Assembly (NCBI RefSeq): GCF_900099835.1
Contig: NZ_FNKP01000001.1
Span: forward strand, 992,001 to 1,056,000
Origin: Paraburkholderia fungorum
Lineage (GTDB): Bacteria > Pseudomonadota > Gammaproteobacteria > Burkholderiales > Burkholderiaceae
Direction of reading: 5' to 3'
Length of the DNA: 64,000 nt
Shown: one piece after another, positions 6,822-62,179 of the stretch
Layout of the letters: each line of letters begins with the position of its first letter
How positions within the stretch are numbered: the first letter of the stretch is position 1
Position numbers and translations under genes: made by a program
The notes under the pieces: model-generated
What the model was told of the DNA's origin: nothing
Databases searched by the model: none
The model's input: only the letters and a program-made list of their open reading frames with translations

Positions 6822-6876
6822 CAACGGACTTCTGGTCCGGTCCCGGCTGTCCCTGTCATGAACCCGGGCAGCGACG

Positions 6877-6912
6877 CGCTATCGCGTGGTCTGCGATAGC
6901 GTGCGCCGTTTT
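6877..6912 (+). terminator. Possible weak terminator after the GT4 gene
   Basis: Arms 6877-6885 and 6893-6901 are perfectly complementary (9 bp) around a 7-base loop. A four-T run follows only at 6909-6912, eight bases past the stem, so it is a weak intrinsic terminator at best. Its position between convergent genes supports the call. Confidence 0.4.
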
Positions 6913-6925
6913 CCTGATTGATTCA

Positions 6926-8605: not shown

Positions 8606-8696
8606 GGCGATGTCGCTGACGGACGTCGAATGCCGGCATCCGGGTCAGCCCAGAGTCAAAGGGAACAAGGCACTGCAACGAGGCTCACCGCCTTCG

Positions 8697-32073: not shown

Positions 32074-33489
32074 GTGAGTTTGTTACCGATCATCCTGTGT
32101 GGCGGCGCTGGGTCAAGACTCTGGCCCGTCTCGCGCGAGTTGCACCCGAAGCCGTTCATCCGACTCGCGGATGGCGAAAGCCTGCTGCAAAAGGCTTTCC
32201 TGCGCGCGGTGGCGTTGCCCGGCGTGAAGGAAGTGCTGACGGTAACCAATCGCGATCTGTTCTTCAAAACCGAAGACGATTTCCGCGAAGTGAATGCGAA
32301 AGGCCATCGCACTTCGTTCATCCTCGAACCGTTCGGCCGCAACACCGCCGCGGCGGTAGCGACGTCGGCCTTGCATACGGCGAAAGTGCACGGCGACGAT
32401 ACGGTCATGCTGGTGCTCGCCGCCGATCATCTGATCGCCGACCAGCAGGCTTTCGCCACAGCGGTCGAAGCCGCGACGAAGCTCGCGCAGGCAGGTAAGG
32501 TCGTGACTTTCGGCGTGCATCCCGAAACGCCTGAAACGGGCTACGGCTACATCGAGGCCGACGGCGACAAGGTCGTGCGCTTCGTCGAAAAACCTTCGCT
32601 CGACAAGGCTCGCGAATATCTCGCATCGGGCCGCTTCGTGTGGAATTCGGGCATGTTCTGCTTCACGGCGGGCACGATCCTGAAGGAAATGCGGCAGCAC
32701 TGCCCGGAGATTCTCGACGCCGCCTCAGTGTGCATGGAGAAGTCCCCCTCCGCCGAAGGGAAGGACGGCGCGCAGGTGCGTCTCGAACCCGGCTGTTTCG
32801 GCGCGGTGCCGGAACTCTCGTTCGATTACGCGGTGATGGAGAAGTGCCAGCAGGCGGCCGTGGTGCGCTGCGATATCGGCTGGACCGATGTGGGCTCGTG
32901 GACCGCGCTCAGCGATCTCTCGCCGGCCGACGCGAGCGGCAACCGCGTGGAAGGCGAGGCGCTGCTGGTCGACGTGAACAACTGCTACCTGCGTGGCGGC
33001 TCGCGAATGATCGGCGCAGTGGGCATCGACAACCTGATCGTGATCGACACGCCCGACGCGTTGCTCGTCGCGAACAAGGACCGGGCGCAGGACGTGAAGC
33101 AGATCTTTGCCGAACTGAAGTTGCGCGGTCACGATACCTACAAGGTGCATCGCACGGTGCATCGGCCGTGGGGCACGTATTCGGTGCTCGAAGAAGGTCC
33201 GCGCTTCAAGATCAAGCGCATCGAGGTCAAGCCGGGTGGGAGCCTCAGCCTGCAGATGCATCATCACCGGAACGAGCATTGGGTGGTGGTCAGCGGCATG
33301 GCGAAGGTCGTCAACGGCGAACAGGAATTCTTCGTGTCAACCAATCAGTCGACCTATATTCCTGCAGGTCACAAACACCGCCTCGAAAATCCGGGTGTAG
33401 TCGAGCTTGTGATGATCGAAGTGCAGAGCGGCGAGTATCTGGGCGAAGACGATATCGTCCGCTTTGAAGACATTTACGGACGTACTTGA
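32074..33489 (+). CDS. manC: Mannose-1-phosphate guanylyltransferase / mannose-6-phosphate isomerase
   Basis: 471 residues, bifunctional type. GTG start at 32074 after GAGGGGA. The guanylyltransferase domain has LCGGAGSRLWPVSRE, AADHLIAD and VEKPSLDKA. The C-terminal cupin isomerase domain has HRPWGTYSVLEEG, KIKRIEVKPGGSLSLQMH and HWVVVSGMAKV. It supplies GDP-D-mannose, precursor for mannose or, via Gmd and Rmd, D-rhamnose. It is followed by the ABC exporter after one base, which suggests a mannose- or rhamnose-containing polymer is the exported glycan. Confidence 0.96.
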   Translation: MSLLPIILCGGAGSRLWPVSRELHPKPFIRLADGESLLQKAFLRAVALPGVKEVLTVTNRDLFFKTEDDFREVNAKGHRTSFILEPFGRNTAAAVATSALHTAKVHGDDTVMLVLAADHLIADQQAFATAVEAATKLAQAGKVVTFGVHPETPETGYGYIEADGDKVVRFVEKPSLDKAREYLASGRFVWNSGMFCFTAGTILKEMRQHCPEILDAASVCMEKSPSAEGKDGAQVRLEPGCFGAVPELSFDYAVMEKCQQAAVVRCDIGWTDVGSWTALSDLSPADASGNRVEGEALLVDVNNCYLRGGSRMIGAVGIDNLIVIDTPDALLVANKDRAQDVKQIFAELKLRGHDTYKVHRTVHRPWGTYSVLEEGPRFKIKRIEVKPGGSLSLQMHHHRNEHWVVVSGMAKVVNGEQEFFVSTNQSTYIPAGHKHRLENPGVVELVMIEVQSGEYLGEDDIVRFEDIYGRT

Positions 33490-33490
33490 G

Positions 33491-34309
33491 ATGGATATCA
33501 GTTTTACCAACAATACCGAAGACCTGACGCGTCACACCGAGAAAGACGACCTGATCGTCGGTATGAAGTCGGTGCGGGTCTGGGGCACGCTCGGCTGGCA
33601 CGACATCCGTCAGCGCTATCGCCGGTCGGTGCTCGGGCCGTTCTGGTTCACGCTGAGCACGATCATCATGGTCGCCGTGCTCGGCGCGTTGTACTCCACA
33701 TTGCTACATCAGGAAATCTCCGACTACCTGCCGTATCTCGCGGTAGGTCTGGTCGTGTGGGCGTACCTGGCATCGGTCGCCAATGAAGGATGCATGGCGT
33801 TTATCGGCGCGGCCTATCTGATCAAACAGATCCGTCTGCCGCTCACCGTGCATGTCTGCCGGATCGCGTGGCGCAACTTCGTGATCCTGCTGCACAGCCT
33901 GCCGGTGGTCGTGGTGCTGCTGCTCGCCTTCGGACATTGGCCGGGCTGGGAGTTTGTGCTGGTGCCGTTCGCGCTGTTCATCCTGCTGCTGCACGGCGTG
34001 TGGCTCGGCGTCACGCTCGGCGTGCTGTGCGCGCGTTTTCGCGACATTCCGCCGATCGTCACCAATCTGATCCAGGTCGTGTTCTTCTTCACGCCGGTCA
34101 TGTGGTCGCCGGAAATTCTGAAAGACCGCGCGTGGGTTGCCGAATACAACCCGCTGTATCACCTGATCGAAACGGTGCGCGCGCCGCTCACAGGCCGTCC
34201 GACTCATTGGGAGTCGTGGGCCTGGTCGATCGGCTTGTTGATCGTCGGTTTTGCGTTCTCGCAATTCCTGATGAAACGTTTCCGTAATCGCGTTCCTTAC
34301 TGGCTTTGA
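33491..34309 (+). CDS. wzm: Polysaccharide ABC transporter permease (Wzm)
   Basis: 272 residues, six hydrophobic helices, ABC-2 type. IRQRYRRSVLGPFWFTLS near the N-terminus and the late FFFTPVMWSPEILKDR and YNPLYHLIETVRAPL are hallmarks of O-antigen/capsule export permeases (Wzm, KpsM, RfbA-type). It starts one base after manC. It moves completed lipid-linked polymer across the inner membrane with the downstream ATPase. Confidence 0.95.
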   Translation: MDISFTNNTEDLTRHTEKDDLIVGMKSVRVWGTLGWHDIRQRYRRSVLGPFWFTLSTIIMVAVLGALYSTLLHQEISDYLPYLAVGLVVWAYLASVANEGCMAFIGAAYLIKQIRLPLTVHVCRIAWRNFVILLHSLPVVVVLLLAFGHWPGWEFVLVPFALFILLLHGVWLGVTLGVLCARFRDIPPIVTNLIQVVFFFTPVMWSPEILKDRAWVAEYNPLYHLIETVRAPLTGRPTHWESWAWSIGLLIVGFAFSQFLMKRFRNRVPYWL

Positions 34310-34313
34310 TATT

Positions 34314-35090
34314 GTGAGTTCTTCATCGATTGTCGCTCGTAACATCTCCGTCGAATTTCCGATTTACGAGAACTCCCACCGCTCGCTGAAAAAGGCGGTG
34401 CTCAATCTCACGACGGGTGGCCGGATCGGCCAGGACGCGGGTCGCCATGCGATCGTCAAGGCGATCGACGACCTCAGCTTCAGCTTTACCGAAGGCGAAC
34501 GCATCGGTCTGATCGGCCATAACGGTTCGGGCAAGACCACGTTGCTGCGCACGCTGTCGGGCGTGTACGCGCCGGTGCGCGGCGAGCTGAAGGTGCAGGG
34601 CAAGATCGCGTCGCTGCTCGACGTGTCGATGGGTCTCGACCCCGACGCCACCGGCTTCGAAAACATCTATCTGCGCGGCATTCTCGACGGTTTGAAGCCG
34701 GCGCGAATCCGCAGCAAGATCGACGAAATCGCCGATTTCAGCGAACTCGGCGATTACCTGAATCTGCCGGTCCGCACGTATTCGAGCGGGATGATGCTGC
34801 GCCTCGCGTTCGCGATTTCGACCAGCGTCGAAGCCGATATCCTGATCATGGACGAATGGCTGAGCGTCGGCGACGCGGAGTTCGCCGTGAAGGCGGCCAA
34901 GCGTCTCGAAGGGCTGGTCGGCAAGGCGGCATTGCTGGTGGTGGCGTCGCACGATCCGAAGCTGGTGGCGCGCGTGTGCACCCGCAAGATTTCGATGGAA
35001 CACGGCAAAGTGGTGGCGGACGAGCCCGTGAGCCCGCCGGAGAAGAACGACGAGCCGCTGATCAGCCGCGGCGCGGGATTGCCGCATTGA
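34314..35090 (+). CDS. wzt: Polysaccharide ABC transporter ATPase (Wzt), short form
   Basis: 258 residues, GTG start 4 bases after wzm. Walker A is GHNGSGKTT, signature YSSGMMLRL, Walker B ILIMDEW, and the H-loop is in VVASHDPKLV. The N-terminal segment VEFPIYENSHRSLKKAVL is typical of Wzt/KpsT. It lacks the C-terminal carbohydrate-binding domain of about 150-180 residues found in Wzt proteins that recognise a terminal cap, so export should not depend on such a cap. Confidence 0.95.
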   Translation: MSSSSIVARNISVEFPIYENSHRSLKKAVLNLTTGGRIGQDAGRHAIVKAIDDLSFSFTEGERIGLIGHNGSGKTTLLRTLSGVYAPVRGELKVQGKIASLLDVSMGLDPDATGFENIYLRGILDGLKPARIRSKIDEIADFSELGDYLNLPVRTYSSGMMLRLAFAISTSVEADILIMDEWLSVGDAEFAVKAAKRLEGLVGKAALLVVASHDPKLVARVCTRKISMEHGKVVADEPVSPPEKNDEPLISRGAGLPH

Positions 35091-43581: not shown

Positions 43582-43584
43582 GCG

Positions 43585-47662: not shown

Positions 47663-49303
47663 TCACTGCGTGAAATCCGGGACCTTTGCGAGCAGGCAGA
47701 ATTTGCCATCCAGATAGGCATATGCCGGACCGAAATCCGCTTTACCCGTAAAGCCGGACCAACCTGCGTCGAGTGGCGCGCCCGCAATATGTTGCGCCAC
47801 ATCCGCGCGACTCATGCCCGAGACGCCATAACCGATCGTGCGTCCTGACGAATCGGTCACCACGACAAGCACGGCGTCTTGTCGGGACTTTTTCGGGGCA
47901 ACCCAGCCGAATACCTGATGACCCGATTCGGCCTGGATCGCGCTCTCGAAAGTACCGCTGCACAGCGAGTCGTCCCGTCGCAACGGGTCGTACCTCACGA
48001 CGCCGGCGTCGTGCAGCCAGCCAGCCGAATAAGGTCCAATGTTTTCGGTGCTCGCGTACCTGGTGAACTCCATATAAAGCGTATGCATGGATGTCGGATA
48101 GACATAGTTATCGAAATTCGGCTGATCGAGTTCGATCTTCGGCCCGAGAACAGCCAGCCTCGCGTTGAACAGATTGGGCTTGAACGCGGCTTCACGTTGC
48201 ACCGGAGCAAAGATGAGCAGCAGCACAAGCGGCGCGTACCCGATAAAGCGCAGCGATGTTTTCTCCTTCACCAGATCGACGATCAGCAGAACCGTGAACA
48301 GATAGTAGAGAAGCGGCAGAATCACGTAACGTCCGCTGAACGCGCTAGCGAGTCCCAATACCCAGCGGCCGTTCGCGGCCGCGAGGATGGATACGACGCA
48401 AAACGCGGCGCCTCCAATCAGGAAAGCGCGATAACGGGTGACCTCCTGTCCAAACACTGTTCTGGCGCACGCGCCAATCCCGGCAATCAGTGCGAGCGCC
48501 CCGACCACTTCGCACGCATTGAAATCGTTGACGACTCGAATGAAGGGTGAGCCGGCTAGCAGTAGCGCGAATCGAAGACTTGCGAATCGGATCTGCGCAA
48601 CCTCCGGATCGACGGGATACACGGGCATCACATACTTGTACATATAGGCCGCGACCGCGATTGCACCGACGACCACAACCGTCACGATCTCTTTGCGCGG
48701 CCTGCGCAGAATCAACGCTTGAAGTACGAGCACGGGGAATACGAAGACGCCGTTTGCTGCGCAAAGCTCGGCGAGTACGGCGAGCAATAGCGCGGTGCGG
48801 ACCCGAGCAGACCGGTTGCCCGCGCGCGTGAATTCCGCGCTTGCCCAAATCGCGAACAGAATGACACCCGTGTTCTGAACGTTGAACGGGAAGGTGTAGT
48901 TGTCGCCGTTGCACCACGAAAACACCATGCCGACAGTCGCTGCGGCAGCGACCACCCAACGTGCTCCGGAAAGCTCGATTCGCGCAGCAATGACAACGGT
49001 AGTGAGGGCAGCGAAGCACAGACCGACGACCGTCGTGAAGATACTCCAGCCGCCGAACCATCTGATGTCAGCCAGGAAAATCAGACGCGGGATCACGATG
49101 CGGTGGTTGACGTGAAGCTCCCAGAAAACCTTCCAGTCACCGCGACGAATGCTCTGGTCAAATCCGATGACCCCGTCCCATTGATCCTGCGTGGGAATGG
49201 ACAGGAAATGATTGAATACACCCACGAGGGTCGTGACGCAGATATAGACCGCTAAAGCGACCGCAACGATAGCCGGAATGGCCGAACCCGCTCTGATTTT
49301 CAT
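47663..49303 (-). CDS. Polytopic GT-C-like membrane protein, function unknown
   Basis: 546 residues from ATG 49303 (an upstream extension to 49399 has no motif support). About eleven helices in the first 410 residues, then a soluble tail of about 130 residues containing HQVFGWVAPKKSRQ. The first loop has an Asp pair (TQDQWDGVI, Asp40 and Asp43) followed by HRIVIPRL at 67-74, the same layout as the protein at 46436. This suggests both are GT-C fold transferases acting from the periplasmic side. The C-terminal tail may bind acceptor. It is transcribed toward 46436-47614 with only 48 bases between and no terminator visible. Confidence 0.7.
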   Translation of the reverse strand: MKIRAGSAIPAIVAVALAVYICVTTLVGVFNHFLSIPTQDQWDGVIGFDQSIRRGDWKVFWELHVNHRIVIPRLIFLADIRWFGGWSIFTTVVGLCFAALTTVVIAARIELSGARWVVAAAATVGMVFSWCNGDNYTFPFNVQNTGVILFAIWASAEFTRAGNRSARVRTALLLAVLAELCAANGVFVFPVLVLQALILRRPRKEIVTVVVVGAIAVAAYMYKYVMPVYPVDPEVAQIRFASLRFALLLAGSPFIRVVNDFNACEVVGALALIAGIGACARTVFGQEVTRYRAFLIGGAAFCVVSILAAANGRWVLGLASAFSGRYVILPLLYYLFTVLLIVDLVKEKTSLRFIGYAPLVLLLIFAPVQREAAFKPNLFNARLAVLGPKIELDQPNFDNYVYPTSMHTLYMEFTRYASTENIGPYSAGWLHDAGVVRYDPLRRDDSLCSGTFESAIQAESGHQVFGWVAPKKSRQDAVLVVVTDSSGRTIGYGVSGMSRADVAQHIAGAPLDAGWSGFTGKADFGPAYAYLDGKFCLLAKVPDFTQ

Positions 49304-49583
49304 TTTTCCGACGCGTCGATAGTTGTGCCCATCGCTCCATCGACAGGCCGCATTACTATGCCAGCATCTTTTGACGGCGGTCAAACGCAGTGCCGTCAAG
49401 CTTCGCGCTAGTTGGCTCTACGTATCACTGCGATGAGAATCAACGCGGCGTTGCCTGATGCTGACTGTTGCGATCGCGCGCCGACCTGGGCTGCGTGTAT
49501 CCCGGACTCGCGTTAGAGTTTTTCGGTGGATCATACCGAGCGCGACGTAAGGGAAAGTGCGTGCCGGTACGCGCGCGTTGCTC

Positions 49584-51280: not shown

Positions 51281-52159
51281 TCAATCCAGCCGGACAGGCT
51301 GACCGGTATGCGGGTGCGGCCGCGACGCATAGAAGTCGAAGAAATGCTTCTGCCATAGCGCGCAAACCATATCCATCTGCTCGATCAGCAAGGGCGAGAA
51401 GGTTGCCGAAGCGTCGGCTTCATCGACTTTGGTCCGCATACGATCGAACAGGAGTTTCTCGAAGTCGTTGATGCAGTAGTCCCGCCGCTCCTGGTCATCG
51501 AATGGGTACGCAGCGCATGCCAGATCCGCGCGCTGCGAAATATACGTGCTAAACAGCCGCTCGATAATGAACGGCAGAAACGGCGCCGGATCGGTATGGG
51601 TCGTGTCGGTCATCACCGCGACCGCCGCTGCGTGGGCGGGATTGGCGTCGAGAAAGTCGGCAATGGGAAGTAACACGCCCCCCACATAGTCTTGCCAGAA
51701 GCGCCGCGAGCCGACCCAGAAATTGCAGTAGAGCAACGACTGCGGGCCATTTCTCGCGGCGTGCTGAATCGACAGGTCGACGCCGCTAGCATCCAGCAGC
51801 GCCTGCGCCGCTTTCTTCAAGCCAGGGTGCGCGTGCTCGCCCTGCATCCAGACGTTGTACGACCAATAGGCCAGTTGCGGAAACGGATTGATGAAGCAAA
51901 CATCCGCATTCGAATGACGTTGCACGAATTCGAGGAACCGTGCTCCCGACATCTTGGCCTTGAGCGTGAACTTCGGCGAGAAGAGTCCGGTGAAGTTGTG
52001 TTGCAGATGATCGCCGTTGCGATACATATCAACCAGTATCTTGAACTCGCGCCACTGCGGCCGCGAATTGTCAGCCATCACCCACGGCAGAAATTCCGTA
52101 CATGTGAGGGTCTGATCTGCCGCGTAGATCGGCTCGTATATCGCAACGGTTTTACTCAT
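51281..52159 (-). CDS. Unknown protein of the glycan operon
   Basis: 292 residues from ATG 52159, whose start overlaps the stop of the histidine-phosphatase gene. No signal peptide or membrane segment. Conserved-looking phrases are SKTVAIYEPIYAAD, ADVCFINPFPQLAYWSYNVWMQGEHAHPG and LLYCNFWVGSRRFWQDYV. It is rich in aromatic residues. The phrase NFWVGSRRFW followed by later acidic clusters recalls sugar-chain-modifying proteins, but I cannot assign a family. Last gene of the minus-strand operon; its coupling to a phosphatase and glycosyltransferases suggests a role in the same glycan. Confidence 0.75.
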   Translation of the reverse strand: MSKTVAIYEPIYAADQTLTCTEFLPWVMADNSRPQWREFKILVDMYRNGDHLQHNFTGLFSPKFTLKAKMSGARFLEFVQRHSNADVCFINPFPQLAYWSYNVWMQGEHAHPGLKKAAQALLDASGVDLSIQHAARNGPQSLLYCNFWVGSRRFWQDYVGGVLLPIADFLDANPAHAAAVAVMTDTTHTDPAPFLPFIIERLFSTYISQRADLACAAYPFDDQERRDYCINDFEKLLFDRMRTKVDEADASATFSPLLIEQMDMVCALWQKHFFDFYASRPHPHTGQPVRLD

Positions 52160-52749
52160 ACGTGACCTGCGCGTTCCATGCAGTAGCGGTTCAGGTCGGC
52201 ACGCCACGTCAGATACGTGAACGAAGCGTTCGGGACGGTAAAGCTCGGGTAGTGCGTTTCGATAGGTACGCCGAGAAGGTGTTGCAGCATGACGCTGATC
52301 GGGCCGCCATGTGCAACCACGGTGAGCAACCCTGCGTTCGCGCTTTGAGGCCGGATCTCGCTGTCGACCCATTGCTGTACCCGGTGTGCCATGTCCAGGT
52401 GCGACTCGCCTTCTTCATACCGATTGCGGATGTCGCGGTTGAAGTCGGGAAACGCCGCGTTGAAATCGGCTTCGAGCCAGGAGCCGTAGATGCCCGGATG
52501 TGTTTCGGCCAGTCTCGCGTCGAACTTGATGGGTTGCGTGTCGCCGAAAACCAGTTCGGCGGTTTGCCGCGCTCGCGCCCACGGACTGCAATAAATCTGC
52601 GAAGGCCTGAACGCAAAACGTTCGAGCGTAGCGGCGAGATTGACCGATTGAGTTTTGCCCAACTCGGTCAGGCCGTCTTTGTCGGTTGAAATCAGCAGGC
52701 GCTTTTCATTGGCGACTGATTGCCCGTGTCTGATCAGTAGGAGATCCAT
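52156..52749 (-). CDS. Histidine phosphatase family protein (phosphoglycerate-mutase-like)
   Basis: 197 residues. LLLIRHGQSVANEK carries the phospho-accepting His8 in the RHG motif. SPWARARQTAELV supplies the second Arg, and VVAHGGPISVML the second catalytic His. Likely a small-molecule phosphatase, for example of a sugar phosphate. Such enzymes in heptose pathways are usually HAD type, so the role in this operon is open. It starts 15 bases after the preceding glycosyltransferase and overlaps the unknown gene downstream by 4 bases. Confidence 0.9.
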   Translation of the reverse strand: MDLLLIRHGQSVANEKRLLISTDKDGLTELGKTQSVNLAATLERFAFRPSQIYCSPWARARQTAELVFGDTQPIKFDARLAETHPGIYGSWLEADFNAAFPDFNRDIRNRYEEGESHLDMAHRVQQWVDSEIRPQSANAGLLTVVAHGGPISVMLQHLLGVPIETHYPSFTVPNASFTYLTWRADLNRYCMERAGHV

Positions 52750-52764
52750 ATCGGTATATCCGCT

Positions 52765-53820
52765 TTAGCTTTCGTTGTTGCCGGTGATGAGTTCGAGGAA
52801 CGTTTGCGCCGGTTCCGCGAGGCCGAATCGCCGATGCGTGTCCGCATGCGCCTCGAGCCGCAACGTATTGCGCAACTGCGCATCCTGATAAAGCCGTTCC
52901 ATGGCATTGGCCCAGTCTTCGGTCGTGTTGTTGACCAGCAGACCGGTCTTGCCGTCAGTCACCGCCTCTTCGTACACCGGCGACTGCGAGTAGATGCCCG
53001 GAATGCCCAGGCTGCCGTAGTCGATGTACTTGATGCACGATTTGCAACTGTTGAAGAACAGCGCATCGGGATCTTCACGGCCGCCGAGCGGCACGATCGA
53101 AAACATATAGCCTTCGTCGCGAATCGCCGCTTTATAAGCAGAGTTCTCGAGAAAACCTTTGGAAACCAGACGCGGAATTCGCGTCATTTCCGGGAACCCG
53201 TCGCCCCAGAATTCGAGCACGACTTCCTGATGGCGTTCGAGGAACTCGACCACGACCTTGAAGAACTCCTTTCGGAACTGGACGAGCTTGATGCCGTCCG
53301 TGTTGGAGAACAGGACCTTGGGCGGCGTTGCTTCGCGCCAGTCTTCCGGAGCGGAGGGAACCGACTGATGATCGAAGCCGTTCGGAATCACGACCACCGA
53401 CGGCCTGAGGCGCCGCAATCTGTTCTGCAGCGTCTGATTCGAAACCGTCGCGATCGACGCCTGCCGGATCAGCCACGTGATATTGGCCAGCAAGTCGTCG
53501 TTCAGATCGGTGACGCTGTACATCGGCAGATCGATGATCCAGTCGTCCATGTCGTAAATCGTGCGCAGGCCCAGGTCATTGGCCATGCGCATGACGTCGG
53601 TGGCACGATTGGACGTGTGCTTGTTGAAGAGCACGGCATCGAAGCGGCGCAGCTGCCCGACGGTCACGTCGCTTTCGACAATCTGCTCCCATTCGAGCAT
53701 CCCGTTGTGTGCCATGTAGTTCAGCAACGGGCCAAAGCGGGCCGCGATCGAGCGCGACATCAAGCGGTCATGCGATAGCGAAATTCGCTGGACAACAAGT
53801 AGACGGGGAGGCTTCCGCAT
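52765..53820 (-). CDS. Glycosyltransferase (GT4-like)
   Basis: 351 residues from ATG 53820, one base past the preceding stop. RLLVVQRISLSHDRLMSR begins the N-terminal domain. FNKHTSNRATDVMRMA and YDMDDWIIDLP are a pattern seen in GT4-like proteins that share 'DD.ID'. VIPNGFD, VLFSTNTDG-type strand and FEFWGDG precede a degenerate EX7E region, NSCKSCIKYIDYGSLGIPGIYS. Donor unknown. Confidence 0.85.
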   Translation of the reverse strand: MRKPPRLLVVQRISLSHDRLMSRSIAARFGPLLNYMAHNGMLEWEQIVESDVTVGQLRRFDAVLFNKHTSNRATDVMRMANDLGLRTIYDMDDWIIDLPMYSVTDLNDDLLANITWLIRQASIATVSNQTLQNRLRRLRPSVVVIPNGFDHQSVPSAPEDWREATPPKVLFSNTDGIKLVQFRKEFFKVVVEFLERHQEVVLEFWGDGFPEMTRIPRLVSKGFLENSAYKAAIRDEGYMFSIVPLGGREDPDALFFNSCKSCIKYIDYGSLGIPGIYSQSPVYEEAVTDGKTGLLVNNTTEDWANAMERLYQDAQLRNTLRLEAHADTHRRFGLAEPAQTFLELITGNNES

Positions 53821-53821
53821 G

Positions 53822-54805
53822 TCAGAGACTTTCCCGTGCAAGAAGGGCGGCGATCTGAGGTCCAATGATGGATGCTGAGTGTTGTGACATCACGCGTTCG
53901 TAAGTTGCTGCTATTTTCGCGTCGCGGTCGGCGTCGGTGAGCGCGTGCCTGATTGCCGAGGCCAGTTCGCTGACCGAGTCGGTCGGCGCGTACCAGACGT
54001 CGCTGGCGAAGTGTTCCCGCTGCCATGCGCCGTCCGACATGACGAGCGGCTTCTGCATGATCGCGGCCTCCAGGCTCGACCGGCCGGGCGGGTCGATGCT
54101 CGGTTCGACCATCACGCTGCAGTTGGCGATGATCGAGCGCAGCAGCGCGCTACACGGCTGCACGAACGGAAGAAACGTGATGCCGGGATGCGCTTCGGCA
54201 ACGCATTGCCGGAAGTAGTCGTCGTCGCGCGCGCCTCCGACGAACAAACCGTCCACGCCGATCTCATTCAGCGCGCGGATGGTTTGCAGCTGATTCTTGA
54301 TCGGCTCGATCAACCCGAGACCGAGTGCGAATTCCGTGCTGTTCGACACGGTTGACAGCAGATCGAGATCGGGCTGCGCGAGGAAGCGGTTCGAGACGCA
54401 GGTGGGCAACACCTCGATTTTGTCCTCGGGTACCTGAATGTATTGCGTGAAATTCTCGAGTTCGGCGCGCGACTTGAACAGCAGCTTGTGCGCGATCCGC
54501 GTCATTTCCTGGATTCGCTCGACTTCGCTGGCCGGCACCGGGCCGAGCCACCAAACGTTCGGCCAGAGGAAGATGCGCTTGTTCCTGACGGCTGCTTCGC
54601 GCAGGATCGCGTGTCCGTCCGAGTTGACGGAAAAATGGATCACGCCGTCGTAAAAATTCAGCGGGCGACTGCCGATTCCGTAGATGTCGATATGCACGCC
54701 CGACGCTTTCAGGATTTCCGCCACCTGTACCAGCTCCGACTCGCCGCCGCCGCTGACGGCAAACGCGGTGCTGTACGTGGTGAGAATGAATTTAAGCCCG
54801 GACAT
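53822..54805 (-). CDS. GT4-like glycosyltransferase
   Basis: 327 residues from ATG 54805, for which GGAGA lies 6 bases upstream; a second ATG at 54811 sits directly on that site and is unlikely. N-terminus FILTTYSTAFAVSGGGESEL has the Gly-rich loop. VLPTCVSNRFL, ALGLGLIEPIKNQLQTI and DPPGRSSLEAAIMQKPLV (EX7E-like) define the C-terminal domain. It overlaps the upstream glycosyltransferase by 14 bases. Confidence 0.87.
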   Translation of the reverse strand: MSGLKFILTTYSTAFAVSGGGESELVQVAEILKASGVHIDIYGIGSRPLNFYDGVIHFSVNSDGHAILREAAVRNKRIFLWPNVWWLGPVPASEVERIQEMTRIAHKLLFKSRAELENFTQYIQVPEDKIEVLPTCVSNRFLAQPDLDLLSTVSNSTEFALGLGLIEPIKNQLQTIRALNEIGVDGLFVGGARDDDYFRQCVAEAHPGITFLPFVQPCSALLRSIIANCSVMVEPSIDPPGRSSLEAAIMQKPLVMSDGAWQREHFASDVWYAPTDSVSELASAIRHALTDADRDAKIAATYERVMSQHSASIIGPQIAALLARESL

Positions 54806-55865
54806 GCACATCTCCACTGGGTACTCTTTCCAAAACGCTTTGCCAGATGCTGTCCCTCGTACGTTGGAGGATCTCATCGGCTTTCTCTACATACCGGTTG
54901 TTCGACGGATTCGTCCTCTCGAGCTCGTCGAGTCTCGCGCAAATGACGTCGGCCCAGGCGGCGGCGTCTGCTTCGGCGGCAAGCACGCTGTCCGGCGGGC
55001 AAATCTCCTCGGTTGCCGTGCCGCCGCGCACGAAGACCGGCATGCCGACATGCATTGCTTCCAGCGCCGGCACACAGAACCCTTCATGCCGGCTCAGCGA
55101 CAACAGCGCGCTGGCTCGGTCGAATGCAGCGGACAGATCCGCGTCGTCGACCATGCCGGTAAAGTCGATACGCTCCAGCACGCCGAGTGCCCGGGCCCGG
55201 TTGAGAAGGAATTTCGTGTAGTCGTAGTTCGGCACGCTGCCAACGACCGACAGCGATACGTTGATATCGCGCTTGACCAGATTCGCCAGCACGTCGATCG
55301 CGTCTTCGATGCGCTTGTGCGGCACCACGCGTCCCACCATCAGCAGATTGATGTCGCGGCTCGCACACGCTGCCTGCGTTTGCCCTTCGGCGAACGCAGG
55401 CATGTCGGCGAAGACGGGAGGGATGACCACGACCGACGTCGTGCTCACTCCGGCCGGCAGGCAGTTCGCGCTAAAGCGCGAATTGGCGACGACCGTGTCG
55501 AACGCTGCGAGCCTGGGCAATTGCCCGATAGCCTGTTCGCAGAGGTCCGCCGTGCGCGGCTCGAACTCGCGTAACAGTTCAGGCGACGTAATGCCGTGGA
55601 AATAGCAGACCTTGCGGCAACGCAGCGCGAGCAGTGTATCGAGATTCGGATCGAAAATCGAATAGCTCAGGAGCAGCGTGTCCTCTTCGCGCAGGTCGGC
55701 GTACAACGCCTCGATATCGTTGATGGCTCGACTTGCCACGTCGAAATGCCGTGCGTAGATCTGGACTTCCCAGCCGAGACGTTCGGCCATTCGTGCGATG
55801 CCGAGGCAGTGGTTGCCCACTGCGTCGCCGGAGAAAATATCCGGAGCGCAAATTCGCAATGTCAT
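54792..55865 (-). CDS. GT4 family glycosyltransferase
   Basis: 357 residues from ATG 55865, overlapping the repeat-GT stop (ATGA). N-terminus MTLRICAPDIFSGDAVGNH. VCYFHGITSPEL and VANSRFSANCL are typical of mannosyl/rhamnosyl-type GT4 enzymes. LLMVGRVVPHKRIEDAID and SRHEGFCVPALEAMHVGMPVF (EX7E) are intact. It is similar in layout to the C-terminal half of the protein at 55862, suggesting a paralogous origin. Confidence 0.92.
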   Translation of the reverse strand: MTLRICAPDIFSGDAVGNHCLGIARMAERLGWEVQIYARHFDVASRAINDIEALYADLREEDTLLLSYSIFDPNLDTLLALRCRKVCYFHGITSPELLREFEPRTADLCEQAIGQLPRLAAFDTVVANSRFSANCLPAGVSTTSVVVIPPVFADMPAFAEGQTQAACASRDINLLMVGRVVPHKRIEDAIDVLANLVKRDINVSLSVVGSVPNYDYTKFLLNRARALGVLERIDFTGMVDDADLSAAFDRASALLSLSRHEGFCVPALEAMHVGMPVFVRGGTATEEICPPDSVLAAEADAAAWADVICARLDELERTNPSNNRYVEKADEILQRTRDSIWQSVLERVPSGDVHVRA

Positions 55866-58800
55866 GTGGATGGCACCCCTGTAATTTCCGAGAGGCGCCG
55901 CTGATACGCGCGGGCAACGGCCTCGACGGAGTAATCGCGCTGGATGCGCGCGTTGCCTGCTTGCGCGATCTGTTTGCGCGCCGGTGTGTCTTCTATCATG
56001 CGTTTGAGTTGTTGCGCCGCGATCGACACGTCCGGATCGCACCAGTACTGGCCTTCCGAAAACAGGTAGTCGCCGGGGCGTAGCGGCACGAGTTCGCCGT
56101 CCACCAGGAACGCGGTGTCCGGATCGCAGAAATCGACGTTGCCGGAGAAGTTGGTCGCGACGACCGGCTGCCCGAGCGCCATGGCTTCAGCGATCACGCG
56201 CCCAAACCCTTCACTGCGATGCAGCGAAATGTACGCGTCGCAGCAGGCCATGAAGTCGATCGTGTCCTGGCGGCTCAGCCGTTCCGACACGATGTGCATG
56301 CGGCTGTCGTTCGACGCGAGGGAGAGTACTTCGCGCCACACCGGGTCTTCGTCGCGCACGTTCATCGCCTTGATGACAAGGCCGACGCCAGACGAGCTTT
56401 CGCCGAACGCTTCCTTGAACGCGCGCACGCCGGCGAGCGGATTCTTCCGGCTCAGCCACGAGTTGCCGTCGAACATCAGATAGAACAGGAACTCGCCGGA
56501 CGGCAGCCCGAAACGCGCACGTTCGGGATTCTGCGGCGCGGGCACTTCCACCGCCATTGGCATGTGATGCACCGGCGTGTCGCCCAGTCGCCGGTACACG
56601 CTCTGCACGAATCTGCTCTGCGCCCAGATCTCGTCGACCATCTCATGCACCTTGCCGAACGCGCTGGGCCAGTGAGGCAATTCCCACGGCCATGCGCCGA
56701 TCTTGTGAGTGGGCGCGTCGATCAGCTTGCGGCCGCCTTCCAGCGCGAGTCGCACCATTTCCGGCGCGGGCAGGCAGATGAGACTGATGCCGTATTTGAG
56801 GTCGTCGCTCAGCAGATGGTCGACGGAGTTGTCCAGCTTTGCCGGTCCGGACATTGGCGCGGTGATCAGCACGACCGGAGTCGACGTAAGCTGGAACACG
56901 CGCGCGGCCATCCGAGCGTCTTCGCCGAGGCCGAGCACGCCCTGCGGGAAGCCGATCACGTTCACGCCGAACTCGTACCCATGTTCGACATTGGCGTGAT
57001 AGCAGGCCGGCGCGGATACATTCGATCCTGCGGCGCTGTCCTCGCGTTGCACCCTGAGCTTGCCGAGCAGCGGATATTCGTGGTTGCCGAACACGTTCCA
57101 CCATTTCGCGAGTTCTTCACGGCCGGTGTCGGTCGCGAGGTCGAATGCGACGTGCAGATCGGGGCGGTCGTTCGCGATCAGCGTGAGGAACAGCGGCAGT
57201 GGCGACGCGTGGTCGGGCCGGTCGTCGTCGAGGGTGGCCAGTTCGTCGGCGAGGCTCCTGGCCGACCACTTGACCGCGTGATAAGCGTTCTGGCCAGTAT
57301 CTTCCCACCACTGCAGATAACTCACGCGCGCGCTGAAGTTGTCGAGATCGAACGCCGCCTGCAGACCGGGTTGTTCGTTGTGGATCAACGTCAGGAAACG
57401 CGGGAGGCGCGGCAGCTTGCCGTCCTTGCCGGGTTCCGTGTCGAAGAGGGCGGCAGGCAATGCCGCAGTCACCCAATGGATAGTCGGGTATTGGGGCTGC
57501 CCATGTTCGACCCACCACGACAGAAGGTTGAGGCGGCCGATAAAGCTGTTTTGCGGACAAAGCGCCTGCAAATCCGGCCGCTCGTCGAGGATCGCCTGAA
57601 GAAAACGCGGCACGGGCAGCCAGTCGGGGTGCGTGCCCCAGTCCATCTCGAACAGCGGTCCGGGCACACCCGCCGGTACCCACTTGATTGCGGGGTAGTC
57701 GTGCTTGCCGTGTTCGTCCCACCAGCGCAGATAGCCGAGGCGCGTGCCGAAGCAGTTCATGTCGTACGCGGCCTGAAGGTCAGGGCGTTCGTCCCAGATC
57801 AGACGCAGGAAGCAGGGCAGGAGCGGCAGTTCGCAGCGCTCACCCGGTTCCATTTCGAAAAGATCGGCGGGCAGCGGCGTGGCTTCCCAACGGATAGCCG
57901 GATACTGCTGCTGCCCATGCTCGATCCACCAGGACAGGGCATTCAGGCGGCCGATGAAGTTTTCCCCGGCGCCGGCGGCACGCAAGTCGTCGCGCTCGTT
58001 CAGGATCAGCCCGAGGAAACGCGGTATGGGCAGCCGGTTTGGGCGCGCGGCCCATTCCATCTCGAACAGCGACGCCGGCGGGACCGGCGGCACCCATTTT
58101 ATCGCCCGATACTGCTGTTGGCCGTGCTCCAGCCACCAAGACAGGCAGCCCAACCGTCCGGTGAAGCTGTCCAGCACGAACGCACTTTGCAGATCGGGCC
58201 GCTCGGCAATAAGCAGCGCGATGAAGTGCGGAATGTACGGGCGATCTTCACGGAGCTCACCCTCCGGCTCGAGCATCGCTCCGCTGACCGGCGGCGGCGA
58301 CCAGACGAAACGCGTATATTCGCGATAACCGTGCTCTTGCCACCAGCTCAGGCAGGCGAGGCGTCCGATAAATGAATTCAGGTCAAACGCGCTGCGCAGA
58401 TCGGGCCGCTCGGTTGCAATGAGGGCGAGAAAACGCGGAAACGGCAACGCCCCCGCGTCGACCGGCTCCAGCAGCCTCGGCGGCACGACGGGCGGTATCC
58501 ATGCCACGCGTGGACACGCTTCCTGGCCGTGCACTTCCCACCAGTCGACGCAGTTCAGATAGCCCGTCAGCGTGCCGAGGTCGAACGCCCGCGAAAGATC
58601 GTCGCGACTGCCGACGATCATCTTGATCAGCCACGGCAATTGCAAATCGGCCTCTTCGAGCACTGTTTGCATGTCGAGCAGCGTTTCCGTCAGATGCCGC
58701 GTGTCGAGCACGCTCGGCGCGGTGGAACCGAGCCAGAAGGTCAATGCGCGCGGATGCCGCGCGATCAGCGACTCGTTATCCAGTTGATGCAGATATTCGA

Positions 58801-59065
58801 GGTCCTGCGGACGCAACCCCCAGAAAAAGTCCGGGTACGTTTCGCGGGCGGTCATCTCCCACCAGAAGTACAGCGTGATCCGGTCGTCGAGCACGCGCGA
58901 GTCGAAGCGCGCGAGATCGGCTCTGAATTTCATCAGAAAGTAGATCGCGCTTGGCAAGCTGAAAAGCTCGCCCGGCGACGGGTGGCGGTACTCAGCCAGC
59001 CACTCTGTTTTTTTCGTCTCCAACACCAGATTAACCAAGGTCTGCAATCCTCGAAGGCCATGCAA
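55862..59065 (-). CDS. Large repeat-containing GT4 glycosyltransferase (nine WW/EHG-type repeats + GT4)
   Basis: 1,067 residues if read from TTG 59065; TTG 59038 is better placed behind AGGA. Residues about 35-85 are a degenerate first repeat and 141-672 contain eight more. The repeats share ERPDLQxAFDL, SFIGRL, LSWWxEHG, YPAIKW and LFEMEP. Their Trp-Trp pairs fall at residues 68, 175, 241, 310, 379, 448, 517, 586 and 655: six successive intervals of exactly 69 follow the 241 pair. Residues about 695-1060 are a GT4 domain (GVLGLGEDARMA, GAWPWELPHWP, LMFDGNSWLSRKNPL, SEGFGRVIAEAMALGQPVV). I do not recognise the repeat; helical, aromatic-rich carbohydrate-binding or scaffold repeats are plausible. 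Overlaps genes on both sides. Confidence 0.85.
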   Translation of the reverse strand: MHGLRGLQTLVNLVLETKKTEWLAEYRHPSPGELFSLPSAIYFLMKFRADLARFDSRVLDDRITLYFWWEMTARETYPDFFWGLRPQDLEYLHQLDNESLIARHPRALTFWLGSTAPSVLDTRHLTETLLDMQTVLEEADLQLPWLIKMIVGSRDDLSRAFDLGTLTGYLNCVDWWEVHGQEACPRVAWIPPVVPPRLLEPVDAGALPFPRFLALIATERPDLRSAFDLNSFIGRLACLSWWQEHGYREYTRFVWSPPPVSGAMLEPEGELREDRPYIPHFIALLIAERPDLQSAFVLDSFTGRLGCLSWWLEHGQQQYRAIKWVPPVPPASLFEMEWAARPNRLPIPRFLGLILNERDDLRAAGAGENFIGRLNALSWWIEHGQQQYPAIRWEATPLPADLFEMEPGERCELPLLPCFLRLIWDERPDLQAAYDMNCFGTRLGYLRWWDEHGKHDYPAIKWVPAGVPGPLFEMDWGTHPDWLPVPRFLQAILDERPDLQALCPQNSFIGRLNLLSWWVEHGQPQYPTIHWVTAALPAALFDTEPGKDGKLPRLPRFLTLIHNEQPGLQAAFDLDNFSARVSYLQWWEDTGQNAYHAVKWSARSLADELATLDDDRPDHASPLPLFLTLIANDRPDLHVAFDLATDTGREELAKWWNVFGNHEYPLLGKLRVQREDSAAGSNVSAPACYHANVEHGYEFGVNVIGFPQGVLGLGEDARMAARVFQLTSTPVVLITAPMSGPAKLDNSVDHLLSDDLKYGISLICLPAPEMVRLALEGGRKLIDAPTHKIGAWPWELPHWPSAFGKVHEMVDEIWAQSRFVQSVYRRLGDTPVHHMPMAVEVPAPQNPERARFGLPSGEFLFYLMFDGNSWLSRKNPLAGVRAFKEAFGESSSGVGLVIKAMNVRDEDPVWREVLSLASNDSRMHIVSERLSRQDTIDFMACCDAYISLHRSEGFGRVIAEAMALGQPVVATNFSGNVDFCDPDTAFLVDGELVPLRPGDYLFSEGQYWCDPDVSIAAQQLKRMIEDTPARKQIAQAGNARIQRDYSVEAVARAYQRRLSEITGVPST
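57050..58645 (-). repeat. Tandem 207-bp coding repeats (69-residue units)
   Basis: Eight diverged in-frame copies code for residues 141-672 of the repeat glycosyltransferase. The copies conserve protein motifs (ERPDL, WWxEHG, YPxIxW) more than exact DNA, so the array is old rather than a recent slippage expansion. Spacing of the Trp-Trp codons is 198 bases once, then 207 bases six times. Confidence 0.88.
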
Positions 59066-61199
59066 AAGAGAAGTCGTCGGCGGTCAGCGTCAGGTTAGGC
59101 GAGTAGTACGGATCGTTCATGATCAGCTCGCCCCAACGTTGCCTGACCAGCTCGGACTCGCGGTTGAAACGCTCGATTTTCTCGGGCGTGTCTTCCGCGC
59201 CGCGCGTGGCCGACTCATGGTGATAAAGCTCCGCATACGGGGTCCATACGTTGCGGTAGCCTGCCTGGCGCACGCGCAGGCAAAAATCGATGTCGTTATA
59301 CGCGACGTGCAGTTGCTCGTCGAGACCGCCGACCTGTTTGTAGATGGATTGACGGATCAGCAGGCATGCGGCCGTTACCGCACTCATCGTGTTGCGCAGG
59401 CGCGCGCGCGCGAAATAGCCCGCCACGGTGTTCGGGAAGTGCTTGTGCGCGTGGCTCGCAATGCCGCCGACACCCAGCACGACCCCGCCGTGCTGGATCG
59501 TGTCGTCGGGATACAGCAGCTTCGCGCCCACCGCGCCGACCTTGGGCTGCAGCGCCACCGAAACCATTTCTTCGAGCCAGTCTGCAGTGATGACTTCGAT
59601 GTCGTTGTTCAGCAGACAGACGAAATCGGCGGTGCTCACGAGCGCGACCCGGTTGTTCAGCGCTGAAAAATTGAACGGCGAGTCGTCGCGCACGACCGTG
59701 ATGCGCCCGTCGTCTTGCAGGCGCGCGAACAGATCGAGCGTTTCCTGCCGGATCGAGCCGTTGTCGATAATCGTGATGCGGAAATTCGGGTAGCTCGATT
59801 TCTTGCGGATCGACTCGACGCATTGTTCGACGAGGTCCGCCGAGTCGCGCGTCGGGATAATGATCTCAACCGACGGCAATACGTCCGGCAACGCGTACAC
59901 GACCTTGTTGAACGCGTCGGTGCCTGGAGCATGGACCGTGTGCGCGTGGATGTTGTTGCGCTGCAAGTGTTCGTCGAGCGCGCGCAGCGCGGCGATATGT
60001 GCGTAGGGCTTGGCGTCGTGACCGGCGGCGGTGCTCGCGGGAATCATGCGCCAGTGATACAGCGCGCGCGGCACGTGATGGACCGTATGCTGCTCGGCAC
60101 GGTCGATCACGCGCAGCGCGAGGTCATAGTCTTGCGAGCCTTCGAAGCCCTTGCGGAAGCCGCCGACCTCTCTCATGACCGAGGTCCTGTAGACCCCGAG
60201 GTGCGAGATCATGTTCTGGCCGAGGAACAGGTCATAGTTGAAGTCGCACTTGAAGTACGGGGCGGAGCGCTCGCCTTTTTCCGAAATCTTGTCTTCGTCG
60301 CTGTAGATCAGCGCCGCATCCGGGTGATGGTTGATCACCTCGACCACGCAGTAGAGCGCGAGCGGGTGCAATTCGTCGTCGTGATCGAGCAGGCCGACGA
60401 ATTCGCCCGCCGCCAGTTCCAGCGCCGTGTTGCTCGACTCGCTGATGTGTCCGTTCGTGGTCCGGTAAGCCACCTTGATGCGCGGGTCTTTCGCGACGTA
60501 GCTGTCCAGCACGGCCTTGACTTCGCTTTTTTTCGAGCAGTCATCGGCAATGCAGAGTTCCCAGTTCTCGTAGACCTGGTCCATCACCGAGCCGATCACC
60601 TTGTGCAGCCATTTCTCCGGCGTGTTGAAGGTCGGCATGACAATGCTGACGAGCGGCTGGTGCTGCCACGTTTTCGAGCGCTTGCGCAATTGCGGATAAA
60701 GCGACGCCGGCGGTTCGTGCGAGTCGATCCATTCCTGGTAGCTCTGGCCGACCGTGGGGGCGGCCGCCGGTTGTGCGCCGCCGCGCCACGCCGCCATGCG
60801 GCGCGCGCGTTCGAGCAACTCCGGCGGGCACTCGCCGTCGGCGAGCACGTCGATCTTCAGATTGCTGATCGAGAACAGGCCCGGGCGCGCGATCGGGTCG
60901 AGCCTCAACCGACCGACGAGTTTCGGGAACGCCACCACCTGATCGACCTTGCCGCTGCTGTCGACCGCAAGGCCGATGGTCGTGTGCTCGGACATGCCCG
61001 CGCCCGCGTCGAAATAGATCATGCAGGGCGACGCCGGCATGTCCTCCTTCGACAGCTCGAACGAAATGCGCGCGGCGTGGCCGGACAGCGCCTCCCAACC
61101 CACCAGTTCGAACTGGGGGTCGCTGTTCATCGCCTTCCACATAAAGGCGAGATTCGATGAAGGCTCGACGTTATTCAGAGGGCGAAGATCGAAGGTCAT
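59031..61199 (-). CDS. Two-domain GT2 glycosyltransferase
   Basis: 722 residues from ATG 61199, overlapping the upstream gene by 4 bases. An N-terminal domain of about 140 residues (unknown, beta-rich) is followed by two GT-A fold GT2 domains. The first starts LVSIVMPTFNTPEKW, with LLDHDDELHP (DXD-like) and GSQDYDLALRV. The second starts VEIIIPTRDSADLV, with LLNNDIEVI and AYNDIDFCLRVRQAGYRNV. Tandem GT2 proteins of this sort often add two sugars or extend rhamnan chains. Cytoplasmic. The stop lies within the start region of the repeat-GT gene. Confidence 0.93.
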   Translation of the reverse strand: MTFDLRPLNNVEPSSNLAFMWKAMNSDPQFELVGWEALSGHAARISFELSKEDMPASPCMIYFDAGAGMSEHTTIGLAVDSSGKVDQVVAFPKLVGRLRLDPIARPGLFSISNLKIDVLADGECPPELLERARRMAAWRGGAQPAAAPTVGQSYQEWIDSHEPPASLYPQLRKRSKTWQHQPLVSIVMPTFNTPEKWLHKVIGSVMDQVYENWELCIADDCSKKSEVKAVLDSYVAKDPRIKVAYRTTNGHISESSNTALELAAGEFVGLLDHDDELHPLALYCVVEVINHHPDAALIYSDEDKISEKGERSAPYFKCDFNYDLFLGQNMISHLGVYRTSVMREVGGFRKGFEGSQDYDLALRVIDRAEQHTVHHVPRALYHWRMIPASTAAGHDAKPYAHIAALRALDEHLQRNNIHAHTVHAPGTDAFNKVVYALPDVLPSVEIIIPTRDSADLVEQCVESIRKKSSYPNFRITIIDNGSIRQETLDLFARLQDDGRITVVRDDSPFNFSALNNRVALVSTADFVCLLNNDIEVITADWLEEMVSVALQPKVGAVGAKLLYPDDTIQHGGVVLGVGGIASHAHKHFPNTVAGYFARARLRNTMSAVTAACLLIRQSIYKQVGGLDEQLHVAYNDIDFCLRVRQAGYRNVWTPYAELYHHESATRGAEDTPEKIERFNRESELVRQRWGELIMNDPYYSPNLTLTADDFSFAWPSRIADLG

Positions 61200-62179
61200 T
61201 TTGTCAGCAGGGCATCGTAGAGGTCTTTCAGAGGTGACAGAACGGATTGCCATGTGAGGTCGCGTGCCGTGCTCGCCGACGTGCCTGCGGACGCGGCACG
61301 CGGTTGTGCGAGGGCGTCGCGAATCGACTGAACAATGCTGTCGACGTCAAACGGGTCCAGGTAGGCAACATGCTGCGCGAAATATTCTTCGGTAGAGCCA
61401 ACTTTCGTTACCGCGATGCGCGCGCCGGCCGCATGCGCTTCGAGCGCGGCAAGGCCCGGTGTTTCGAGCGTGCTGGGCAGAACGAACGCTTCGCAGGCTG
61501 CGTAGGCGGAACGAAGCGCCAGCGAGTCGTGCGCGAGCGTTCCCGCGTAGATCAACTGGTCGCCGCCTTCGGCGAAACACGCCTGCGCGTATTCCGGGTC
61601 GCGTTGATGGCCGATCAGCACGAGCTTGAGCCCGGGGAACCACTTCATTGCCCGGATCAGCGCCAGCTGGTTCTTGCGCGGCTCGATATTGCCTACGTTG
61701 AGGACGAAGCGATCCTGAATGCCGGATTCGTCGCGGAACAGTTCGGGCGCGACTGGTTCATAAAAGCTCTGTTCGACGCCGTTGAGCACGCTGACGAACT
61801 TCGCGCGCGGCAGGTCGAAGATGCGCGCGAGCGTGTCGCACTCGATCTCCGAATTCGCCACCACCCGGTCGGCCAGCGAGAACTGATGGTGGATCTCGCC
61901 GATCGGATAAAGGTGCTTCGTTTCCTCCGTCACCCAGAGACTAGACGAAACGACCAGCGGCAAGCCTAACTGTTTAACAAAGTTACAGAAGTGCACCGAG
62001 CCGCCGACGCAGGAAAAGAAGTGAACCACGTCGTGTTCGAGGAATCGTGGATTCCACTGATCGAACAGTGTGACGTCCACGCCATGCGCGGGCAGATGCT
62101 TGCGATAGGCAAGCAGCTGGATTTCTCCACCGCCGGGGGTGTGGAAGGCCATGGGGTAGGTGGCGAACAGCACTTTCAT
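61196..62179 (-). CDS. GT4 family glycosyltransferase (first gene of the minus-strand operon)
   Basis: 327 residues. N-terminus KVLFATYPMAFHTPGGGEIQ (Gly-Gly-Gly loop), VVHFFSCVGG, VVANSEIECDTLA, VLNVGNIEPRKNQLALI and PSTLETPGLAALEAHAAGARI (EX7E) are clear. It overlaps the GT2 gene by 4 bases and begins a run of eight minus-strand genes with overlaps or gaps of 15 bases or fewer. Confidence 0.93.
   Translation of the reverse strand: MKVLFATYPMAFHTPGGGEIQLLAYRKHLPAHGVDVTLFDQWNPRFLEHDVVHFFSCVGGSVHFCNFVKQLGLPLVVSSSLWVTEETKHLYPIGEIHHQFSLADRVVANSEIECDTLARIFDLPRAKFVSVLNGVEQSFYEPVAPELFRDESGIQDRFVLNVGNIEPRKNQLALIRAMKWFPGLKLVLIGHQRDPEYAQACFAEGGDQLIYAGTLAHDSLALRSAYAACEAFVLPSTLETPGLAALEAHAAGARIAVTKVGSTEEYFAQHVAYLDPFDVDSIVQSIRDALAQPRAASAGTSASTARDLTWQSVLSPLKDLYDALLTK

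Follow-up and report, generated by a model that had tools for sequence, protein, structure and literature searches.

A predicted helical module, tandemly repeated in variable number, precedes the catalytic part of a GT4 glycosyltransferase from Paraburkholderia fungorum

Introduction

The window analysed here is a 64,000-nucleotide stretch of the Paraburkholderia fungorum genome (contig NZ_FNKP01000001.1, positions 992,001 to 1,056,000), and within it lies a gene whose product combines a GT4 glycosyltransferase with a long array of regularly spaced Trp-Trp pairs. The locus raises the question of what the repeated unit is, how its copies arose and what they might do for the enzyme. The reading put forward below, which we hold to have an even chance of being right, is that the array is a length-variable, non-catalytic solenoid that serves as spacer or dock and places the GT4 domain in a surface-polysaccharide assembly complex.

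The array gene and its catalytic part

The open frame runs on the minus strand (55862-59065) over 1067 codons, from a TTG at 59065 to the stop at 55862. The first Met of the homologue P0009 aligns by eye to Leu10, which corresponds to TTG 59038 and lies beside the stop codon of the upstream gene; on these two grounds, TTG 59038 is probably the natural start, giving a protein of about 1058 amino acids. The principal features are as follows.

55862..59038, minus strand: repeat-array GT4 glycosyltransferase gene (longest frame from TTG 59065; start placed by homologue P0009)
57020..58969, minus strand: nine-unit module array (residues 33-682), an alpha-solenoid by prediction (pLDDT 83.8 for the model of residues 1-690)
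58817..58969, minus strand: unit 1, residues 33-83, WW68, diverged first unit (profile)
58460..58657, minus strand: unit 2, residues 137-202, WW175 (profile)
58262..58459, minus strand: unit 3, residues 203-268, WW241 (profile; part of two-unit model)
58052..58255, minus strand: unit 4, residues 271-338, WW310 (profile; part of two-unit model)
57845..58048, minus strand: unit 5, residues 340-407, WW379, most similar to unit 7 (profile, unit comparison)
57638..57841, minus strand: unit 6, residues 409-476, WW448 (profile)
57434..57634, minus strand: unit 7, residues 478-544, WW517, most similar to unit 5 (profile, unit comparison)
57224..57427, minus strand: unit 8, residues 547-614, WW586 (profile)
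57020..57220, minus strand: unit 9, residues 616-682, WW655, adjoining the catalytic part (profile)
55865..56983, minus strand: GT4 (GT-B) catalytic part, residues 695-1067 (Pfam PF00534, invariant columns)

The original prediction had placed nine Trp-Trp pairs at residues 68, 175, 241, 310, 379, 448, 517, 586 and 655, and all are present in frame, with intervals of 107, 66 and then exactly 69 residues six times. Shuffling of residues 1-690 (10,000 rounds) rules out chance or low complexity as the origin of the array: the shuffled sequences held 1.5 pairs on average (maximum 7) against the nine observed, and their longest chain of pairs at a spacing of 69 was two against seven. A profile of the unit recovers nine copies, including the diverged first one, which still scores 37 bits with profile A1. 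The motifs originally quoted do not recur exactly in every unit: EHG follows one residue after the Trp pair in five of the nine (241, 310, 379, 448 and 517). The array had been estimated at half of the protein and in fact occupies about 61%. At the DNA level, Tandem Repeats Finder detected no 207- or 414-base repeat, and the unit copies have therefore diverged; its sole output was a 20-base row with a period of 9 bases, and a DNA satellite was rejected.

The remainder of the protein is a GT4 enzyme, as had been supposed. The C-terminal part matches PF00534 (Glycos_transf_1) with 41.5 bits, above the gathering cut-off of 26.4 (E 1.3e-10), and E952-x7-E960, which we take to be the E-x7-E motif of GT4 (GT-B) glycosyltransferases, is invariant among 36 aligned relatives. 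The alignments (A2 and A3) comprise 36 of the 39 proteins P0001-P0039, with P0002, P0021 and P0026 left out and, in A2, a fragment from the window standing in for P0001. The score for PF20706 (GT4-conflict) fell below threshold (24.1 bits, gathering cut-off 26); the anti-phage or conflict role at which it hints was set aside on account of that score and of the lack of a PADLOC match for three proteins.

Predicted fold of the unit

Residues 1-690 were modelled with AlphaFold2 from 36 sequences (mean pLDDT 83.8, pTM 0.61), and a two-unit piece (residues 203-341) from 23 sequences (pLDDT 88.3, pTM 0.78). Most regular units are predicted to consist of a helix of about 9 residues, a helix of about 6, a helix of 18 and a connector that includes a short helix or bridge, so that the regular unit is predicted with good confidence to have three main helices in a repeated helical fold. 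The model thus agrees with regular helical units, which may stack into a superhelix as originally proposed.

The original view that no named repeat has this pattern is supported: Pfam, NCBIfam, PDB sequences and PDB folds returned no match that explains the unit. Foldseek returned nothing at E <= 0.001 among 350,542 PDB chains for either model; a known fold was likewise sought in viral libraries and with VIA, where no convincing match appeared, which does not in itself prove a new fold. The unit profile found no relative among PDB sequences (best E 0.19). When 28 units were scanned singly against Pfam, no named repeat family (TPR, Sel1, HEAT, ARM or other) was matched at E <= 1; four unrelated families matched one unit each, the best being DUF7496 with E 0.066, and a 14-residue match of the whole protein to LRV_2 (E 0.25) was taken as chance. 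No plausible family was found for 30 modules in NCBIfam, where a helicase matched one module (E 0.0045). A full-text literature search, which covered few subscription papers and no bioRxiv preprints, yielded no recognised description of the repeat; a paper on the P. phymatum O-antigen concerns, in the part available, a GT2 gene; it was not linked to the array locus and was discarded as a candidate. The module and its expansion therefore appear undescribed in the libraries searched. The claim of an undescribed module stands to that extent, although the module is not peculiar to the window protein and its core also occurs in single copy.

The module outside the array family

With profile A1, built from 28 units, the order yielded matches at E <= 0.001 in five of 200 genomes and the phylum in 11 of 398, both counts including the source genome; the broader profile A6 raised the latter to 13 of 398. 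For all these tallies, part of the candidates was scored in most genomes, and they include a few probable chance matches, because L054 (presumably LysR-like), L164 (unclear) and L166 (presumably RseP-like) were set aside as module matches. Weak matches also occur in two short frames, L056 (79 codons) and L057 (26 codons). At E <= 0.01, matches came from 35 of the 144 genus genomes.

Most matches outside the array family were inspected individually, and they place the module in several contexts. As a single copy it lies close to the C-terminal end of frames of about 360 to 500 codons with a YLDPD-type motif (L029, L049, L050, L052, L055 and L162), in similar frames without that motif (L163, L165) and inside a 770-codon frame of the YLDPD kind (L048/L167). 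Elsewhere the module stands between a YLDPD-type part and a GT4 domain (L030, L051/L160, L058) or ahead of a GT4-like motif in a 1132-codon frame (L161), and two to five copies precede GT4 in L053/L066 and L027/L067. At L067 a 1027-codon frame (5950-9030, minus strand), which adjoins a five-unit array GT4, matches the double-GT2 neighbour as well as sequence of the array GT4. Of 382 candidates in a protein search with a tandem pair, four were relatives; each has GT4 Pfam domains, and Aquibaculum and Azospirillum are among them.

Of the 7997 candidates scored in a protein search with L049, 3952 were relatives at E <= 0.001. Members of this family have about 430 residues and, where they bear a name, mostly go as hypothetical protein, a few as group 1 glycosyl transferase. 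No Pfam domain was found in any of the 120 relatives listed (P0040-P0159), nor any Pfam family in the YLDPD-type proteins L048, L049, L050 and L052, and the nearest PDB sequence to the L049 family, a GT8 enzyme, is not significant (E 0.076). The YLDPD-type proteins are probable GT-A-like glycosyltransferases, judging from the motif, which we take as a glycosyltransferase sign, from some of the source names and from the fusion to GT4. The array profile matches all 120 listed single-module proteins, the single-module profile matches 39 of 39 array proteins (and, weakly, three of 195 shuffled sequences), and hhalign relates the two with a probability of 97.5 (E 6e-12). At the level of sequence profiles, the array unit and the single-copy module are thereby shown to be homologous; the L049/P0040 proteins differ in that their single copy sits towards the C-terminal end of a different catalytic part, for which Pfam has no family.

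A second type of array has three copies in L028/L068, eight to nine in L010/L069/L103 and at least seven in L104, behind a different N-terminal part. Three of the frames are:

L069 5982-10334, plus strand: second-type array of 8 to 9 units before GT4, 1451-codon frame
L104: second-type array of at least 7 units before GT4, 1495-codon frame
L068 5131-7962, plus strand: second-type array of 3 units before GT4, 944-codon frame

Where P0001-type arrays have Pro, these mostly have Thr, and for this reason they are read as a separate expansion.

Conserved residues and a possible glycan track

Residues were compared across 259 array modules, 21 second-type modules and 125 single modules. A core of R15-x-D17-L18, L24, G29-R30, W36 and G41 is common to the three groups, and F22 is shared by two of them. 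Since this core persists without any array, it most plausibly reflects how the module folds. Position 37, the second Trp of the pair, is Trp in 100% of the array modules, 86% of the second type and 4% of the single modules, in which it is Phe in 88%. The Trp-Trp pair, originally taken as the defining feature, is consequently not one, and the aromatics look more like elements of fold and packing than a binding ladder. The second Trp goes with membership of an array, where it may help adjacent units to pack against each other; a role in binding a ligand is possible.

The same residues bear on a reading in which the aromatic face of the array would bind the nascent polysaccharide, giving processivity or direct chain-length counting. 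The protein has 33 Trp in residues 1-690 and seven in the rest, the spacing is regular, the unit number differs between species, the gene belongs to a polysaccharide locus, and the near-constant second Trp of both array types could have an array-specific role. However, the core is unchanged in single-copy modules, which have no track, fold and unit packing would explain the conservation, and no carbohydrate-binding family in Pfam matches the array. We regard such a track as doubtful.

Unit number and the evolution of the array

Counting and comparison of repeats in relatives brought out a variability, and a step of two units, that the original prediction had missed. In 28 loci of the P0001 type there are five units (five loci), six (four), seven (ten), nine (seven, including the window) or ten (two); these comprise the window and 27 of the 30 loci (L076-L105) retrieved out of 40 genomes with a match, the other three (L103, L104 and L105) being of a different type. 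No eight-unit array was seen in the 28 loci or in the 39 proteins. Two proteins count four units, P0032 because it starts late and P0037 because it lies on a 3555-base contig. Among named species, which overlap in part with those of the 28 loci, ten units are found in Paraburkholderia susongensis and P. ultramafica, nine in P. ribeironis and P. tuberum, seven in P. graminis and P. rhynchosiae, six in P. fynbosensis, P. antibiotica and P. lacunae, and five in P. aspalathi, P. sediminicola and P. polaris. In other genera, Rouxiella aceris has six, Rahnella laticis six (one weak) and Hydrogenophaga four.

The Enterobacterales loci L155 and L159 (Rahnella, Rouxiella) encode the same kind of array GT4, about 41% identical over the best segment, which suggests that it was transferred across classes. 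In Polynucleobacter (L157, approximately 6001-8002), array and GT4 fall in two different reading frames, representing either a broken gene or a sequencing slip.

Units 5 and 7 form the closest pair in all 13 nine-unit records, and units 6 and 8 the second-closest in nine of them; these records count the window protein twice (win_P0001 and P0002), include P0005 and L133 with identical scores and leave out P0028. Within the window array the 5-7 pair stands out and the 6-8 pair does not; the counterpart of unit 6 is closest to unit 8 in several nine-unit relatives, which is not clearly so in the window protein. Mean similarity within arrays is slightly higher at a distance of two units (165) than of one (155). 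The pairing of 5 with 7 and 6 with 8 points to duplication of a two-unit, 138-residue block, and these unit comparisons show that the nine-unit form arose mainly in this way, long ago in the lineage of the window. The gap between units 6 and 7 is 83 to 89 residues in some nine-unit arrays and about 70 in others, making at least two events likely, and the existence of six- and ten-unit arrays implies that single-unit changes happen too.

On a tree of the GT4 domain with 44 rows, unit number requires at least 16 changes, against a mean of 24.8 when shuffled (as low in 0 of 200), and is thus clustered but labile. The tree has some very long branches and near-duplicate records of one species (L140 = P0011), omits L155 (motif pattern unmatched) and L157 (two frames), and includes 17 protein matches chosen beside the window protein. 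Among the 25 closest pairs listed, unit number differs even where the GT4 parts are 91 to 100% identical. P0010 (seven units) and P0030 (five), both named Paraburkholderia sp. MM5384-R2, share an identical end of 551 residues, from about residue 377 of P0010, ahead of which their arrays differ; P0009 (nine) and P0029 (five), both from P. youngii, have 95.7% identity in GT4. Such identical or near-identical ends behind different arrays suggest that gene conversion or recombination took place within the array. In close relatives the first, the second to fourth and the last units match their own positions, and it is the middle number that varies. The source genome also encodes a five-unit paralogue (G000:C1:187188-189590; L065 9183-11576, minus strand) with 73% identity in the catalytic part, adjoining a GT2-methyltransferase fusion, an RgpF-GT2 fusion and an acyltransferase; among the 144 genus genomes, a second P0001-type array locus was seen in the source genome only, with at most seven candidates scored per genome.

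This lability would suit neutral elongation, in which folding or docking would require a single unit or a few, while the others would be gained and lost, with no effect, through recombination between similar units: differing arrays sit before nearly identical GT4 parts, and block duplication is mechanistically easy. Yet L157 alone of the arrays examined is not in one open frame, units keep a position-specific identity between close species, and single-unit neutral steps should have given some eight-unit arrays. Neutral elongation is accordingly judged unlikely.

The polysaccharide locus

The neighbourhood of the array gene is rich in glycosyltransferases and contains genes for sugar nucleotides (RmlC-like, RmlD-like, a PF16363 dehydratase, ManC-like and UDP-GlcNAc 2-epimerase), of which the dehydratase may, we presume, be RmlB rather than a GDP-mannose enzyme. 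Three further features are relevant.

59031..61253, minus strand: conserved upstream neighbour, a protein with two GT2 stretches (Pfam, synteny)
52765..55865, minus strand: three genes of GT4 type next to the array gene (retained in two of the three related loci compared, a single one of them in the remaining locus)
33464..35090, plus strand: ABC exporter pair (one Wzm-like; one Wzt-like, 258 residues), at a distance of about 21 kb from the array gene

The double GT2, the array GT4, the GT4s, the gene at 51281-52372 and a methyltransferase are wholly or largely kept in stretches of three other genomes, where the array has ten (G032), six (G029) and seven units (G030). No strong match to two of the GT4s was found in the G030 stretch, and no methyltransferase match was seen in that of G029. 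The exporter pair was unmatched in the stretches around the paralogue L065 and the syntenic L070, L071 and L072; this, together with its distance, weakens the tie of the array gene to an ABC pathway, which on gene content is a loose one. The single-module loci L073, L074 and L075 contain Wzt-like genes.

Some Wzt proteins have a C-terminal carbohydrate-binding domain. The Wzt-like ATPase of the window (34314-35090, plus strand) has only 258 residues, and owing to this length the domain is probably missing. Further along, 42157-45638 (plus strand) encodes in a row a UbiA-HAD fusion, an FAD_binding_4 protein and a short-chain dehydrogenase, assigned by Pfam only, and these genes resemble, as we take it, the polyprenyl-phosphate arabinose (DprE1/DprE2-like) pathway. 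No Pfam family was found at E <= 0.001 for 46436-47614 (plus), 47663-49399 (minus) or 51281-52372 (minus). The first two products have about eight membrane-like stretches each by a simple hydropathy count, and matches to the third lie next to the array gene in relatives.

The combination of a glycosyltransferase with a helical solenoid is of a kind already known: O-GlcNAc transferase (GT41) has a TPR alpha-solenoid, with units of 34 residues, N-terminal to its GT-B part, whereas the unit described here has 69 residues, three main helices and no TPR match in Pfam. That the solenoid would similarly capture protein substrates for the GT4 domain is very improbable, for all the shared layout of a helical solenoid before a GT-B domain, as the neighbours are genes of polysaccharide synthesis and export.

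A proposed spacer or dock for the GT4 domain

We prefer the spacer or dock outlined at the outset because the module is general to glycosyltransferases, the end units keep their identity among close relatives while the middle number changes, and identical catalytic ends stand behind different arrays. In such an arrangement nine three-helix modules, each with a core of about 48 residues and a connector (69 in all), would form a solenoid over the N-terminal 60% of the protein. The array itself would be non-catalytic, its end units would dock to partner enzymes or a membrane complex, and the number of middle units would set the distance or reach from the dock to the GT4 active site, much as the coiled-coil spacers of WbdD-type enzymes act. 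Against this, neutral drift could account for the copy number, whose variation does not by itself prove that length matters.

The closest parallels known are described, in the parts of the sources available, for polysaccharide assembly enzymes. The length of the WbdD coiled coil helps to set O-polysaccharide size (PMC11231755), and terminators of the WbdD/WbbB type resemble the window protein in joining an extended helical spacer of variable length to a catalytic domain (PMC11231755, PMC3482155). As far as those texts go, their spacer, a coiled coil, stands between the terminating enzyme and the polymerising one, whereas the window protein has a tandem-repeat solenoid on GT4. With a home-made, uncalibrated heptad score, the best value was 0.63 for the window protein and at most 0.68 for 24 window genes, against 1.02 for a coil-like stretch in L160. 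Klebsiella O4 ORF7 (GT137) likewise has a helical-repeat-like part, a TPR-like bundle, in an ABC-pathway glycosyltransferase; by its description in the accessible text it is set apart by another catalytic family and by a bundle that precedes a coiled coil (PMC11231755). PglH is also a glycosyltransferase with an added helical element that counts sugars, but in the available portion of the source this is one amphipathic ruler helix limiting addition to three residues, with no repeat array (PMC5792488).

Ruling of chain length by the array is possible. As a tentative extension, the array may represent a new class of ruler, in which a tandem-repeat solenoid that varies mostly by two units at a time, and is recombined onto a common catalytic end, would set the chain length or geometry of a surface polysaccharide through its unit number. 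If so, a ruler solenoid would do the work of the coiled coils in known ABC-pathway systems.

The arrays of this family constitute a natural series of enzymes with similar, in places identical, catalytic domains behind five to ten modules, which makes a link of protein length to polysaccharide length or complex geometry directly testable. More broadly, the comparisons define an accessory module of glycosyltransferases that is common, yet without a convincing match in the copies of Pfam and NCBIfam searched.
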